A stretch of 36,672 nt of DNA, from the IMG/VR virus record IMGVR_UViG_3300033233_000099, positions 1 to 36,672 of that record. The stretch is one strand, 5' to 3'. The position numbers were made by a program, and so were the translations under genes. Shown here piece by piece: positions 26,370-36,672 of the stretch. A model generated the notes under the pieces. It saw only the letters and a program-made list of their open reading frames with translations. It was not told the DNA's origin and made no database searches. This DNA comes from a virus. Each line of letters starts with the position of its first letter. The stretch's first letter is position 1.

Positions 26370-26794
26370 GCGGCATCGTCTATCTCCACGCCGAGACGGC
26401 GGCCGATGCGCTGATCGTCCTCGACGCATCCCGGCGCACCTACATGGCGCTCGGCCGGGGCGGCTCGCACTACCACCTGATCGCGCCGCTTGAGCAGTGG
26501 CACCCGCTCGTCGGGGACGGGCGTCGCCACGCCGGCCAGCTCGGCTGCACCTGCCAGGCGGGGACGTTCAGAGGGACGTGCTACCAGGTCAGCCGGGCCG
26601 AGGCCTTCGAGGGTACGGCGGAGCCGCCCCACCAGCCGTTCTCGGACCTCTCGAAGATCGACCGGCCGATGGTCGACGAGCACGGAGACGCCATCGGGTT
26701 CCTCGCCGTTCCGCCGGGCACCGACGAAGAGGAGCCTGCCTGGCTCGACAGTCCGGCGGGCGCCGGGGAGTCGGTGGAGGCATTCCGTGGGTAG
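26366..26794 (+). CDS. SWIM-like zinc-binding protein
   Basis: 142 aa, GTG start in a GTGA overlap. Residues about 60-75 read CTCQAGTFRGTCYQ, the CxC-x(n)-C-x-H layout of SWIM fingers, with Gln at the final His place. SWIM fingers occur in DNA-binding and recombination-associated proteins, which agrees with the neighbours. The remainder is an N-terminal alpha/beta part and an acidic C-terminus. Confidence 0.5.
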   Translation: MSGIVYLHAETAADALIVLDASRRTYMALGRGGSHYHLIAPLEQWHPLVGDGRRHAGQLGCTCQAGTFRGTCYQVSRAEAFEGTAEPPHQPFSDLSKIDRPMVDEHGDAIGFLAVPPGTDEEEPAWLDSPAGAGESVEAFRG

Positions 26795-27938
26795 CCTGAC
26801 CCGGATCGCCTTCACGGCCGACTGGCACGTCGACGAGTACGGGTCCCGGGTGGATCCGGCGTCGGGCCTGAACGCCCGTCTCCAGGACTACCTGACGACG
26901 GCGGCGTTCGTCGTCGACCAGGCCGGATCTGCCGGCGCCGCGGCGCTCGTGATCGCGGGCGACTTCACCGAACGCCGCCACCCGTCGCCGTGGCTCGTGG
27001 CCCGGATCGTCGAGGTTCTCGACCGCTCCCCCGAGCTCGTCCTCGCGCTCAAGGGCAACCATGACAGCGCCAAGGCCGGCCGCTCGATCGTCGATGTACT
27101 CGGCGGCCGGTTCGGGGTCATCGGCGTCAGCTCGCCGCGGATCGTCGAGGTCGGGGACGTCTCGATTGCGTGCATGCCGTTCCTCGACCGCCACTGGCTC
27201 CGCGCACAGCCGGGTTTCGAGTCTGTCCCCGACGCCGAGGTCTTCCGTGTCCTCGGCGAGCAGTTCATCGGGATCGCCGCCGGGCTGTATGCCCAGGCCC
27301 AGCGCGACCATCCGGGCGGCGCCTGCGTCCTCGTCTGCCACCAGACGCTCGCCGGCGCGCAGATGAGCGAGACGCAGCGGGCGTTTCTCGGCGACCTCGG
27401 ACTCGTTGTCGACGCGCGTGCCCTCGCGGCGATCGGCTTCGAGGCCGTTGTCGCCGGCCACCTCCATCGCCACCAGGTGGTGATCCCCGGCGATCGCCCG
27501 GTCCTCTACGCCGGCTCGATCGAGCGGGTGGACTTCGGCGAGGAGAGCGAGCCGAAGGGCTTCATCGTCGCCGATGTCGGCCCGGGCCGGTTCGAGTGGC
27601 AGTTCATCGAGACGCCGGCGCGCCAGTTCGTGACGATGCGGGACATCGGCGAGGTCCTCAGCACCGAGCGTGAGGACGCCCACATCAAGGACGCCATCGT
27701 CCGCGTGCTCGATCTTGACCCCGCGGCAGACGTCGGCGTCATCCGGGCGAACCTCGAAGCCGCCGGCGCCTTCGAGATCACCGAGATCCGGAGGCGGTCC
27801 GTCGAGCCGACGACGACCTCCGCCGGGATGTCCGAAGGCCTGAGCGCGGAGCAAGCGCTCGAGGCCTACTTCGACGGCGACCCGGATCGTGCCGCGCTCA
27901 TCGAGCGCGGCCGGGCAATCCTCGCGGAGGTGGGCTGA
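26787..27938 (+). CDS. sbcD: SbcD/Mre11-type nuclease subunit
   Basis: 383 aa from the GTG at 26787. All phosphoesterase motifs are present: Asp12 and His14 (TADWH), GD at 58-59 (IAGDF), Asn91-His92-Asp93 (GNHDS) and GHLHRH at about 224-229, giving the two-manganese active site. The C-terminal ~100 residues are the capping and SbcC-binding region. Together with the ATPase gene at 28356 it would form an end-processing exonuclease/endonuclease, like T4 gp47 with gp46. It makes DNA ends for recombination-dependent replication. Two tiny zinc-ribbon genes separate the two subunits. Confidence 0.85.
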   Translation: MGSLTRIAFTADWHVDEYGSRVDPASGLNARLQDYLTTAAFVVDQAGSAGAAALVIAGDFTERRHPSPWLVARIVEVLDRSPELVLALKGNHDSAKAGRSIVDVLGGRFGVIGVSSPRIVEVGDVSIACMPFLDRHWLRAQPGFESVPDAEVFRVLGEQFIGIAAGLYAQAQRDHPGGACVLVCHQTLAGAQMSETQRAFLGDLGLVVDARALAAIGFEAVVAGHLHRHQVVIPGDRPVLYAGSIERVDFGEESEPKGFIVADVGPGRFEWQFIETPARQFVTMRDIGEVLSTEREDAHIKDAIVRVLDLDPAADVGVIRANLEAAGAFEITEIRRRSVEPTTTSAGMSEGLSAEQALEAYFDGDPDRAALIERGRAILAEVG

Positions 27939-28189
27939 TGCCCTGGGATCCATTCTCGATGCCGATCGTCGACCCGGCCTCGCTCGACTGGACGTTCCCG
28001 GCCGGCTATCGCCTCTCGGGCTTCGGCGAATGCCGCAGCTGCAACGCCCCGATCGCGTGGCTCGAGAGCGAGCGGACCGGCAAGCGCTCGCCCTGGAACC
28101 CTGAGGGGACGTCGCACTTCGCAAGCTGCCCGAACGCGGCCGCCTGGCGCGACTGGTCGGCGAAGAAGGCCCGGAAGGCGGGCGCCTGA
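27938..28189 (+). CDS. Small zinc-ribbon protein
   Basis: 83 aa, overlapping sbcD by one base. ECRSC near residues 31-35 and ASC near 62-64 suggest a Cys3-type metal site. The tail is basic and Lys/Arg-rich, suited to nucleic acid contact. Role unknown; embedded between the two nuclease subunits. Confidence 0.5.
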   Translation: MPWDPFSMPIVDPASLDWTFPAGYRLSGFGECRSCNAPIAWLESERTGKRSPWNPEGTSHFASCPNAAAWRDWSAKKARKAGA

Positions 28190-28356
28190 TGGGCGAGGTC
28201 TGCCGACGCTGTGGCGGGCGGGGCTACGTCTGGACCGGTGCCGAGCGGCTCCTGTGCGGTGCGTGCTGGGGGACCGCGCGCGAGCGGCCGCGCGAGCAGT
28301 GGCTGCCACGGCCGTGGCCGGCGGTGTCCGACCCATCCAGGACGAGGGGGCATTGA
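28189..28356 (+). CDS. Tiny zinc-ribbon protein (55 aa)
   Basis: CRRCGGRGY and CGACWG form two CxxC knuckles like half of a DnaJ central zinc finger, followed by a Pro-rich tail. ATG overlaps the previous stop and the stop overlaps the next ATG. Confidence 0.5.
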   Translation: MGEVCRRCGGRGYVWTGAERLLCGACWGTARERPREQWLPRPWPAVSDPSRTRGH

Positions 28357-30578
28357 TGAAGCTCGATCGGATCACCCTCCGTGGCTTCCTGAGCCACCGC
28401 GACACGGACTGGGCTCCGAACGGCGCGCGCCTGGCGACGCTCGTCGGGGCGAACGGATCGGGCAAGTCAAGCCTTCTCGACGCCGTGGCCTACGCCCTCT
28501 TCGACGACGCCCGGGCACGGACCGACGATCTCGTCACGCTCGGGGCGACCGACATGAGCGTCGTCGTCGAGTTCGCCTTTGCCGGCGAGCGCTACCGGGT
28601 GACCCGTGGCCGCACGATGAAGGCGGGCGGGAAGAGCTTCCTCGAGCTGGCGATCGCGGCCGCCGATGGCTGGCGGCCGCTGACCGCGGACAGCATTCGC
28701 GAGACCCAGGAGCGGATCGCCGATCTCCTGCGCATGGACGCCGCGACATTCCGCACCGCCGCTTACCTCGGCCAGGGGCGCGCGAACGCGTTCGCCGAGG
28801 CGACGGCCGCGGAGCGCAAGCGGATTCTCGGCCAGGTGCTCGGACTTGACCGCTATGCCCGTGGCGAGGCCCTTGCGCGGGAGAAGGTGCGCGAGCTCGA
28901 GGGCCGGATGGCGGCCGAGCGCGGCCAGGTCGATCGCCTCGATGTCGAGCTCGCCCGAAGGCCGGATCTCGAGGCAGCGCTGGCGGAGCAGCGCGCCGCG
29001 GCCGAGCTGCTTGCGCGCCGGATCCGCGAGACAGACGACGAACGGAATGCCCGCCAGGCGCGGCTGACAGCGCTCGCAGCCGAGCTCGCCGCCGGCGAGG
29101 CGGCCGCGGCCGAGCTCGCGCGCATCGATGCGCAGCTGGCCAGCCTGCGCGAGCGGTACCGGCGGACGACCGAGCGCGTGGAGGTGAGCCGCCGGACGAC
29201 CGCGGAGGCAGAGCTGGTCATCGCCGGCGCCAGCGCGATCGAGGCGGCGGCGGCGCGACTGCCCGAGCTTCGCGCCGAGCTCGAGCGGGCGGAGGCGGCC
29301 GAGCGCGACGCCCACTCCATCGAGCGCGAGATCACGACCCTGCGCGAGCGCATCAGCGCAGCCGCCGCGGAGCACGAGCGCCTGGCGGCGGGCTGGCAGG
29401 CACGCTACGAGGCGGCCCGGACGCAGACTGACGAGCTCGCAGCGGCAGTGGCGGCCCTGGCGCCAGTCACGTGCCCGAACTGCGGGACCTCGATCGTCAT
29501 CGACCAGGCGGGCCTCAAGGAGCGGCTCGCGGCTGCCCGCAAGCGGTTCCTCGAGCTCGAGGGGAGCCGCCCGGCGCGCCCGCTGTCGATCGACCGCGAT
29601 GCTGCCACCCTGCTGCTCGCCGAGCAGCGCCGAGCCGGCCTGGTCACCGATCCTGACCGTCTGCGCGAGCTCCGGCACGCCACCCTCGAGGCAGAGCGCC
29701 TCGTTGCGCGGGCTGAGGGCGTCGCGGCAGCCCGGGCAACGATCGAGCGCGAGGCGGCTGCCCGGGCAGCCGCAGCGGCCGAGCTCGCCGAGATCTCGGC
29801 GGCCGGCGAGTGGGCCGCAACCGAGCGGATGTCGGCTGCCGAGCGCGTTGCCGCGGCCGAGCCGCTGCGCGCGGAGCGCGACGCGGTCAGGTCCGTCCTC
29901 TCGCAGCTCGAGCGCTCGCTCGCGGCGGTTGAGAACGAGCGGCGAGGGATCGAGCGCCAGATCGCGGCGACCGAAGCCGAGCTCGAGCGACTCGATCGGG
30001 TCCGCTCCGAACGTGACGAGCTCGCCGAACGGATCCGGGCAGCGGAGGTCGAGCTCGGACGACTGCGCCGGCTCGTCGTCGCCTTCGGCGTCACCGGGAT
30101 CCCGGCCCGGATCATCGAGGGAGTGCTGCCCGAGCTCGGCGTCTATGCGAATGAGCTGCTCGGCCAGCTCCGACCAGGGATGACGCTCGACATCCGGGCG
30201 CAACGCGCAAAGCGCGACGGCAAGGGCGTGGTCGAGGCGCTCGACCTGGTCGTCCGTGACGACGTCGGCGAGCGGCCGCTAGCCCTGTTCAGTGGCGGGG
30301 AGCGGATGAGCGTCTCGCTCGCCATCGCGGTCGGCCTCAGCCGGCTCGTCGCGCGGCGGGCAGGGACCGCGATCCGGACGCTCGTGATCGACGAACCCGA
30401 CGGACTCGACGCCGAGGCGCGCCGAGCATTCGGTCAGGCGCTGCGGATCCTCGCCCATCACGGCGAGCTCGAGCGAGTCGTGCTCGTCAGTCACCACGAG
30501 GACCTCGCCGACGTCGGGGACGCCATCTATCGGGTGACGAAGGGGGCCACCGGCTCCCTCGTGGAGCAAGTCGCGTAG
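28356..30578 (+). CDS. sbcC: SbcC/Rad50-type ATPase
   Basis: 740 aa, shorter than cellular SbcC (around 1000 aa). N-terminal Walker A is GANGSGKSS at about 31-39, and the Q-loop is YLGQGRA near 131-137. Two long antiparallel coiled-coil arms flank one zinc hook, CPNC at residues 373-376. The C-terminal half has the ABC signature LFSGGERMS near 644, Walker B LVIDEP near 675 and the His switch VSHHED near 710. All ATPase parts are intact, so it should work with the SbcD partner on DNA ends. The short arms are typical for viral versions. Confidence 0.9.
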   Translation: MKLDRITLRGFLSHRDTDWAPNGARLATLVGANGSGKSSLLDAVAYALFDDARARTDDLVTLGATDMSVVVEFAFAGERYRVTRGRTMKAGGKSFLELAIAAADGWRPLTADSIRETQERIADLLRMDAATFRTAAYLGQGRANAFAEATAAERKRILGQVLGLDRYARGEALAREKVRELEGRMAAERGQVDRLDVELARRPDLEAALAEQRAAAELLARRIRETDDERNARQARLTALAAELAAGEAAAAELARIDAQLASLRERYRRTTERVEVSRRTTAEAELVIAGASAIEAAAARLPELRAELERAEAAERDAHSIEREITTLRERISAAAAEHERLAAGWQARYEAARTQTDELAAAVAALAPVTCPNCGTSIVIDQAGLKERLAAARKRFLELEGSRPARPLSIDRDAATLLLAEQRRAGLVTDPDRLRELRHATLEAERLVARAEGVAAARATIEREAAARAAAAAELAEISAAGEWAATERMSAAERVAAAEPLRAERDAVRSVLSQLERSLAAVENERRGIERQIAATEAELERLDRVRSERDELAERIRAAEVELGRLRRLVVAFGVTGIPARIIEGVLPELGVYANELLGQLRPGMTLDIRAQRAKRDGKGVVEALDLVVRDDVGERPLALFSGGERMSVSLAIAVGLSRLVARRAGTAIRTLVIDEPDGLDAEARRAFGQALRILAHHGELERVVLVSHHEDLADVGDAIYRVTKGATGSLVEQVA

Positions 30579-32724: not shown

Positions 32725-33722
32725 TGCCGAAGCCGAGGCGCGATCCATACGTCGCGGTGGATGCCACGATCCGGCGGAACGCGAAACTCGCGGCCTTGCC
32801 GTCAGACACCGCGCGCCTGGGCTGGCTCTATGTCGGCCTGGGGGAGGCGAAGCTCCAGCGTCCGGCTGGGCGGTTCGCGTCGAGGGCCCACTGGGCCGAG
32901 GTAGCCGGACGATTCGGGCGCTACCTGGGCGACTACCTCTCGGTCGGTCTCCTCGAAGAGGCGCCGCACCTCTGTGACCGCTGCCGGGCGGGCTGGGGCG
33001 AGCTCCCGGCAGGCGCTCTCATCGTCCACGACTGGAAGCGCCATCAGACCGATCCCGGGGCGGCAGAGCGGGCTGAAGCATGGCGAGAGAACGATGACCG
33101 AACGGCGAAAGACACTCCATCGAACGACGAACGACCGCCGACAGAACGCGGATTGAACGGTCTCTCACGCGCGCGGACGCGCGATCCCGCGGGACCCCGC
33201 GCGGCGAACAGGAAGAGGAGAGAGGAAAGAGAACGTAGTGAATCTCAGGTTCCTACGGCCGTACCCGCGCGCAAGGCTGCGCGACCTTCTCGGGTCCGAG
33301 AGTTCAGTCGGGCTGGCGACATCGACCTGCGCGGTCCGTTGCTCGACGCGCGCCAGGCAAAGGCGTGGGAATCGTTCGGCCCGGAATGGGACGGCGTCAA
33401 GGCGGCCTGGCTCGGCCGTGGGCTGCGGTACCCGCCGTCGGGCTCGGTCGAGGATGAAGGCGACGACTCGCAGCGCTCGATCCTCTGGCAGATCCTCGAT
33501 GCAGCGCCGGCGGACCTGCCGCGCTGGATCGCCGAGGCGCCCAAGGGTCTCACGGGCGCTCGTCTGGTCGGCTACCTCCTCGAGCGCTGGCATGAGGCGC
33601 GGGATGTGTCGATCGAGCGGTCCGAGGCGGATGAGATTGCCTGGCTTGAGGCGAAGGGCGATCAGCGAGCGCCTCTGCCCGACGCGACCGCTGTGCTCGT
33701 GACCGGGGCGGTGTCACGGTGA
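32724..33722 (+). CDS. Replisome organiser / replication initiator-like protein
   Basis: 332 aa. The N-terminal ~115 residues (DTARLGWLYVGLGEAKLQ, WAEVAGRFGRYLGDYLSVGLLEE, then LIVHDWKRHQTDP) form the winged-helix domain of DnaD/replisome-organiser type phage proteins. Residues about 120-195 are a low-complexity, Arg/Asp/Glu-rich linker. The C-terminal domain (residues about 205-310) has ILWQILDAAPADLPRWI and a helical end, perhaps for helicase loading. The linker DNA carries periodic GAACG boxes and palindromes, as in lambda gene O, where the origin lies inside the initiator gene. Confidence 0.6.
   Translation: MPKPRRDPYVAVDATIRRNAKLAALPSDTARLGWLYVGLGEAKLQRPAGRFASRAHWAEVAGRFGRYLGDYLSVGLLEEAPHLCDRCRAGWGELPAGALIVHDWKRHQTDPGAAERAEAWRENDDRTAKDTPSNDERPPTERGLNGLSRARTRDPAGPRAANRKRREERERSESQVPTAVPARKAARPSRVREFSRAGDIDLRGPLLDARQAKAWESFGPEWDGVKAAWLGRGLRYPPSGSVEDEGDDSQRSILWQILDAAPADLPRWIAEAPKGLTGARLVGYLLERWHEARDVSIERSEADEIAWLEAKGDQRAPLPDATAVLVTGAVSR
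33089..33235 (+). other. Candidate replication origin (iteron-like array inside the initiator gene)
   Basis: GAACG occurs at 33089, 33100, 33122, 33129, 33144, 33155 and 33231. Leaving out 33129, the first six give spacings of 11, 22, 22 and 11 bp, in phase with the helix turn and not a multiple of the codon length. Just downstream are CGCGCG/GCGCG inverted repeats (33168-33183), the palindrome TCCCGCGGGA (33185-33194) and a 24-base purine tract (33210-33233). The stretch encodes a linker under weak protein constraint. Confidence 0.5.
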
Positions 33723-33994
33723 GCGTGGCAAAGGCGTGCCTGCTCTGCGGCCACGAGGGACCTGGCGTCAGCATCCGGCTGGTCGACTGGGCCGAGCCGC
33801 TCGGCGGCCGTGCGTTCGAGACGCTGCCGCGCTGCTTCGACGCCCAGGCCTGTCGGGCCCGGGTCGAGGCCGCCGGGGACCGCTGGGAGGTGCGCGACGC
33901 GACCGTGCCAACCGTGGAGCCGATGGCGTCGCCAGAGCCGACGACGGCCGTTGCTGGGCCGGCCGAGGCGGAGGTGCCGTCATGGCTGCCGTGA
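33719..33994 (+). CDS. Small zinc-ribbon protein
   Basis: 91 aa, GTG start in a GTGA overlap. CLLCG at 8-12 and CFDAQAC (about 39-45) form a split metal site, then an acidic and Pro/Ala-rich tail. Function unknown. Confidence 0.5.
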   Translation: MSVAKACLLCGHEGPGVSIRLVDWAEPLGGRAFETLPRCFDAQACRARVEAAGDRWEVRDATVPTVEPMASPEPTTAVAGPAEAEVPSWLP

Positions 33995-34284
33995 CGGGCA
34001 TCCCGATGACCGAGGCCCAGTTCCAGCGCGCGGTGCTCGACCTCGCCCACATTCTCGGCTGGTCCGTCTACCACCCGATGCTCTCGAAGTGGTCCGAGCG
34101 TGGCTGGCCGGACCTCGCCCTCGTCCGTCCACCGCGTCTCGTCTTCGCCGAGCTGAAGAGCGAACGGGGCCGCACGAGCCCGCACCAGGACCACTGGCTC
34201 GCGCTGCTCGGAGCGGTGCCGGCCGTCGAGGTCTACCTCTGGCGGCCGAGCGACATCGAGCGGATCGCCGAGCTGCTCCGATGA
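33982..34284 (+). CDS. VRR-NUC family nuclease
   Basis: 100 aa from the ATG at 33982; the GTG at 33991, in a GTGA overlap with the previous stop, is an equally good start. PD-(D/E)xK residues are visible: Glu11 in MTEAQFQ, Asp44 in GWPDL and Glu57-x-Lys59 in FAELKS, followed by the family's QDHWLALL helix. Stand-alone VRR-NUC domains of this size act as structure-specific nucleases, including Holliday junction resolution. It would resolve recombination intermediates before packaging. Confidence 0.8.
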   Translation: MAAVTGIPMTEAQFQRAVLDLAHILGWSVYHPMLSKWSERGWPDLALVRPPRLVFAELKSERGRTSPHQDHWLALLGAVPAVEVYLWRPSDIERIAELLR

Positions 34285-36534: not shown

Positions 36535-36672
36535 GCCGCCTCCTCCTCCTCCTCCTCGCCGCCGTCCTCCTCGTCCTCGCCCTGCTCCTCCACCGCCGCG
36601 AGCCGGAGCTCGAGGGCCGCTGGATCGACGAAGGCGACGACGGCTTGCCGCCGGCGGACCCGCGGCTGCTGT
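36531..36672 (+). CDS. N-terminal part of a small membrane-anchored protein (cut by window end)
   Basis: 47 complete codons. MSR followed by six Leu and a hydrophobic helix to about residue 20, then a polar acidic part. The helix is coded by repeated CTC. The last base leaves a codon open that is completed by bases 1-2 if the window is circular, joining the 48 residues at the left end (96 aa in total). A single anchor with a short soluble domain next to lysis genes would suit a spanin-like role, unproven. Confidence 0.55.
   Translation, partial: MSRLLLLLLAAVLLVLALLLHRREPELEGRWIDEGDDGLPPADPRLL

Follow-up and report, generated by a model that had tools for sequence, protein, structure and literature searches.

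A candidate replication origin of helically spaced boxes inside a putative initiator gene of an uncultured phage

Results

The window analyzed here is the whole of one IMG/VR virus record, 36,672 bases in length and approximately 70% GC. Structural-type genes lie on its left and the early region on its right. The early region contains SbcD-like and SbcC-like nuclease genes, a phage metallopeptidase gene, a gene here called P0001, an ORF of 91 aa, a VRR-NUC nuclease gene, and an SNase-like gene; coordinates of the features around P0001 are given in Table 1. The SbcD-like and SbcC-like genes (PHROG 100 and PHROG 77) occupy 26787-30578, ahead of the candidate origin region. The 91-aa gene had no family match, and short proteins resembling its product were present in contigs of the relatives described below. 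Among the proteins scanned, no helicase or helicase-loader gene was recognized beside P0001.

Table 1. Positions of features in and around the P0001 gene, numbered from the first base of the window.
Feature	Position	Strand	Remarks
Candidate replication initiator gene P0001, 332 aa	32724..33722	+	N-terminal DNA-binding-like domain, predicted disordered linker, C-terminal helical domain
Candidate iteron array, seven 11-bp slots	33089..33165	+	register reading, self-identity, chance tests
Slot boxes GAACG, GAACG, GACAC, GAACG, GACCG, GAACG, GAACG	33089, 33100, 33111, 33122, 33133, 33144, 33155	+	
Off-register GAACG, 7 bp from neighboring box	33129..33133	+	
GC-rich palindromic stretch separating the array from the weak duplex	33171..33207	+	forms weak hairpins when single-stranded, z -1.8
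Candidate DNA-unwinding element	33206..33265	+	contains 24-base purine tract 33210-33233 and GAACG at 33231
91-aa gene after P0001, conserved-looking cysteines	33719..33994	+	
VRR-NUC nuclease gene	33982..34284	+	query that led to relatives L010-L028

A preliminary description of this DNA had reported six GAACG boxes within 71 bp, five of them at spacings of 11, 22, 22, and 11 bp, with no codon periodicity and with an extra copy further on, followed by GC palindromes and a purine run. All of its coordinates were correct: GAACG begins at 33089, 33100, 33122, 33129, 33144, 33155, and 33231, the first six copies lie within 33089-33159, the copy at 33129 is out of the register of the other five, each codon phase of the 332-aa ORF is represented among the boxes, and the palindromes (33178-33201) and the run of 24 purines are present after the boxes. 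Each of the 22-bp gaps contains a degenerate box in register (GACAC and GACCG, respectively), and the array is therefore read as seven 11-bp slots. Identity of the array segment with itself peaked at shifts of 11, 22, 33, and 44 (0.48, 0.51, 0.49, and 0.46), with most other shifts at 0.2-0.3. The array corresponds to codons 122-148, i.e. the end of the last helix of the N-terminal domain and the start of the linker, approximately 365 bp into the gene and 3′ of the part that encodes the DNA-binding domain.

The window has 81 copies of GAACG on the + strand and 67 on the - strand, and the density of the box elsewhere was not similar to that in the array. The cluster is the densest 71 bp of any 5-mer in the window, the sole tie being a TCCTC run at 36541. 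This run is part of a dense TCCTC/CTCCT stretch with a 9-bp period on the + strand (36535-36591), which sits in glutamate- or leucine-rich reading frames and is probably a coding repeat. The window contained no second case of five copies in seven slots, whichever 5-mer and whichever period from 8 to 14 bp was taken, and 60 simulated windows that took account of codon phase never produced more than four. Synonymous shuffles of the P0001 gene served as a null that preserved the protein; six GAACG in 71 bp was reached with P = 0.001 (0 of 5000 shuffles when genome codon usage was applied), and any 5-mer with five copies in an 11-bp register with P = 0.003 or 0.0002. Because the shuffle probabilities fall between 0.0002 and 0.003, the peptide accounts for part but not all of the repetition; that is, the relevant P is about 1e-3 and not 1e-6.

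The 60 bp at 33206-33265, beginning forty bases 3′ of the array, has the lowest nearest-neighbor stability of all 60-bp segments in the 36.7-kb window, with a GC content of 0.52-0.55 compared with a mean of 0.70. The minimum of cumulative GC skew was located at about 27.5-28 kb, away from the array, although this position counts little against the array since the skew itself is weak.

The P0001 sequence had no match in Pfam, PHROGs, NCBIfam, PDB, or 50,697 phage records, direct scans of viral contigs and genome contigs for relatives found none, and a PDB fold search returned nothing significant. A structure predicted from the single sequence was poor, but one based on the family alignment was usable, with a confident N-terminal domain at about residues 7-130, a confident C-terminal domain at 206-312, and a disordered linker between them at about residues 131-205, in which the stretch modeled as disordered runs from about residue 136 to 200. 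The linker had been guessed beforehand to be flexible, which agrees with this predicted disorder. In the model, the N-terminal domain appears winged-helix-like. Foldseek comparison with viral models gave weak matches that included DUF1376, HTH, and ‘replicon initiation’ proteins; those to mycobacteriophage DUF1376 and HTH proteins (probability 0.95 and 0.60) were at the level of fold, with E-values of 0.01-0.02 and no match in sequence.

Direct searches having failed, relatives of P0001 were reached through neighboring genes. A gene near VRR-NUC in contig L018 has the C-terminal domain of P0001 in common (52% over 90 aa), contig L011 carries a gene similar to it, and from these two genes we built a set of 27 distinct viral contigs carrying a gene of this kind. 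The family gene encodes an N-terminal domain ending in W..WQEGD, followed by a linker and a C-terminal part that both vary. Identity of the P0001 C-terminal domain with the members that have this domain was about 50% (E 1.4e-27 for L067 and 2.1e-27 for L044). For the N-terminal domain alone, the match to the family was weak (hhalign probability 18%) and there was no hmmsearch hit, but conserved positions align. The closest full-length homologue, L072, which was found in a final scan, is 36% identical, N-terminal domain included. As compared at the sequence level, the tie of P0001 to the family appears to rest mostly on the C-terminal domain and on L072. The part of the L072 gene (L072:1712-2785) outside this homology is an HNH endonuclease domain (PF01844, residues 146-188), inserted after the N-terminal domain and ahead of the box array, so that a putative replication initiator would here be fused to a nuclease.

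Weak matches to PHROG 3926, ‘replication initiation protein’, were obtained for the N-terminal domains of 8 of 12 relatives, the best at E 0.002, and a single relative matched PHROG 13246, ‘replisome organizer’. Searches with the family of genome contigs and of the 50,697 annotated phage records were empty; the initiator family is unnamed, with no member detected among annotated phage records. Eight contigs have the metallopeptidase gene of the window. Compared directly along their full length, none of them gave a match to P0001, and in two (L008 and the contig of L002/L064) an initiator of the family was detected only by way of the family. The L008 metallopeptidase is 69% identical to that of the window. 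Contigs L002-L009, which share this metallopeptidase gene, have differing replication genes, for example an ORF for a DnaB-like helicase in L002, and this suggests module exchange among them.

With no motif preset, GTAAC was the most enriched 5-mer of the 27 family linkers, which contained 65 copies, compared with a single copy elsewhere in the genes. In 26 of 27 relatives the linker that follows the N-terminal domain contained GTNAC boxes, the exception being L047, which had none in its linker. Successive boxes were spaced at 11 bp 30 times and at 12 bp 28 times, and never at 9, 10, or 13 bp; distances between all pairs of boxes peaked again at 22-24 and 33-36, and there was a minor spacing class of 7-8 bp, comparable to that of the off-register GAACG in P0001. 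The 58 spacings of 11-12 bp observed compare with a mean of 21 and a maximum of 26 under a synonymous null. This box-spacing test was used in place of autocorrelation with gene-wide synonymous shuffles, which is a poor test for the family because shuffling puts GC-rich codons into the linker. The boxes of relatives occur in all codon phases, so that it is the DNA and not the peptide that is conserved, and comparison of the boxes with the protein, as the preliminary description had proposed, showed that relatives keep the box spacing in the linker while the linker peptide differs.

When the whole records of the 27 relatives (950 kb) were searched for three GTNAC boxes at 11-12 bp, such triple arrays were found in 15 records, every one inside the initiator gene. 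The window had no GTNAC triple array, its own array having GAACG in place of the GTNAC of the family, and no GAACG array was found in a second genome. L008 has exactly seven TAACG boxes, at spacings of 12, 12, 12, 11, 12, and 12, and this core is one base apart from GAACG. The linker of L072 has GTGAC/GTCAC boxes, arranged at L072:2330-2375 as inverted pairs GTGAC-nn-GTCAC, 7 bp apart, and not as one box per 11 bp. The DNA that follows the N-terminal domain was, in most relatives, among the weakest few per cent of the locus.

Short runs with a 6-bp period (TAGGCGTAGGCG, AGCGGAGGCGG, GGCGTCAGGCGTCAGG) were seen by eye 3′ of the boxes in the linkers of L056, L063, L050, L048, and L065. A second block of 6-bp periodicity was considered as a general family feature, but it was not general by a simple periodicity test and its 5-mers were not clearly enriched, and it was left out of the mechanism proposed below.

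Discussion

The patterns detected make it quite probable that 33089-33265 is a phage replication origin, with iterons and an unwinding element situated inside the gene of its own initiator. That an origin lies within this gene had been suggested in the preliminary description and is supported here because P0001 shares a homologous C-terminal domain and its architecture with a family whose linkers carry boxes at 11-12 bp, the array is confined to the gene, and the weakest duplex of the window is adjacent. The parts that did not agree were the skew minimum, which is elsewhere, and the likeness to lambda, which extends to the layout only. As the array adjoins this weakest duplex and nearly all relatives have a similar array in the same place, the phage probably starts to copy its DNA there. 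By analogy with lambda O and SPP1 gp38, we propose that the winged-helix-like N-terminal domain of P0001 would bind along one face of the helix, contacting the seven boxes at intervals of one turn, that the resulting nucleoprotein complex would strain and open the adjacent purine-rich duplex, and that the C-terminal domain would recruit the replicative helicase or its loader.

An alternative, which we consider unlikely, is that the boxes are transcription control sites of the replication operon, bound by the winged-helix-like protein or by another phage regulator, with no origin present. Arrays of short helically phased sites would fit regulators too, as would the predicted fold of the N-terminal domain. 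Operators are usually positioned upstream, however, and this array lies well inside the gene. In 26 of 27 relatives its position, as defined by the protein, is the same, and in the window the least stable duplex comes after it. Less likely still is that the array is coincidental, or repetition driven by the protein in a charged linker of low complexity. The peptide (ENDDRT, SNDER, TER, LNG) does contribute, and synonymous shuffles attain the observed value about once in 300 to once in 1000, but the boxes occur in all three frames, the array is unique in the window, and relatives whose linker peptides are entirely different show the same spacing, so that this explanation is already largely refuted by the family sequences. 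A packaging (pac), partition, or recombination site located by chance in the P0001 gene is the least probable explanation, since the array accompanies an initiator-like gene across contigs of differing gene content, even though phage pac and centromere-like sites are likewise arrays of short repeats and nuclease genes come after P0001.

The layout of the candidate origin resembles that of known systems. In lambda, the origin is in the middle of gene O and consists of iterons and an unwinding region, with the N-terminal domain of the O protein binding DNA and the C-terminal domain binding P (PMC6022878, PMC7466680). An origin within the initiator gene, as in lambda O and the O genes of Stx phages, is thus common to these phages and, as a candidate, to P0001; the DNA-binding N-terminal and the C-terminal parts of O are joined by a flexible linker, as predicted for P0001; and repeated initiator sites are followed in lambda by an easily unwound region and in the window by a weak duplex. 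The details differ, in that lambda has four iterons (Stx phages six) with 18-bp inverted repeats, compared with a box of 5-6 bp each 11 bp in seven slots, and a 39-bp AT-rich region, compared with a weak duplex at a purine tract in a genome of 70% GC. The earlier term “lambda-like” holds for the layout but not for the protein, P0001 having no sequence match to lambda O in Pfam, PHROG, NCBIfam, or PDB.

SPP1 oriL lies in gene 38 (G38P) and has direct repeats and an AT-rich unwinding element (PMC6316719), and the phage 80alpha origin has been placed by inference in ORF20 (PMC5499656). In both, the replisome organizer gene houses the origin, as proposed for P0001, but P0001 had no PHROG or Pfam match to these proteins, and SPP1 has a second origin while none was found in the window. 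There is also a resemblance to the family in L008, L042-L067, and L072, which has the architecture of P0001, a homologous C-terminal domain (L044, L067, L072), and, like the P0001 gene, linker boxes at helical spacing with a weak duplex 3′ of them in most members. Family boxes are GTNAC(G), commonly 11-12 bp apart, compared with GAACG strictly at 11 bp in the window. We lean slightly toward the view that the box drifted from GTAACG/TAACG to GAACG together with the initiator while the helical spacing was kept, and it would therefore be the spacing, rather than the sequence of the box, that is the conserved feature of the origin.

It is rare for the origin of an uncultured phage to be located. 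The candidate described here is probably a variation on a known layout, in a family of which the annotated phage records yielded no member, and it could be read from sequence by a simple rule, namely boxes spaced 11-12 bp apart within the linker part of an initiator gene together with an adjoining weak duplex. A protein of previously unassigned role thereby gains a likely role as initiator, and the array in its gene provides exact mutations for testing. The pairs of boxes and initiators across the family form a natural series in which to follow joint change of an initiator and its sites.
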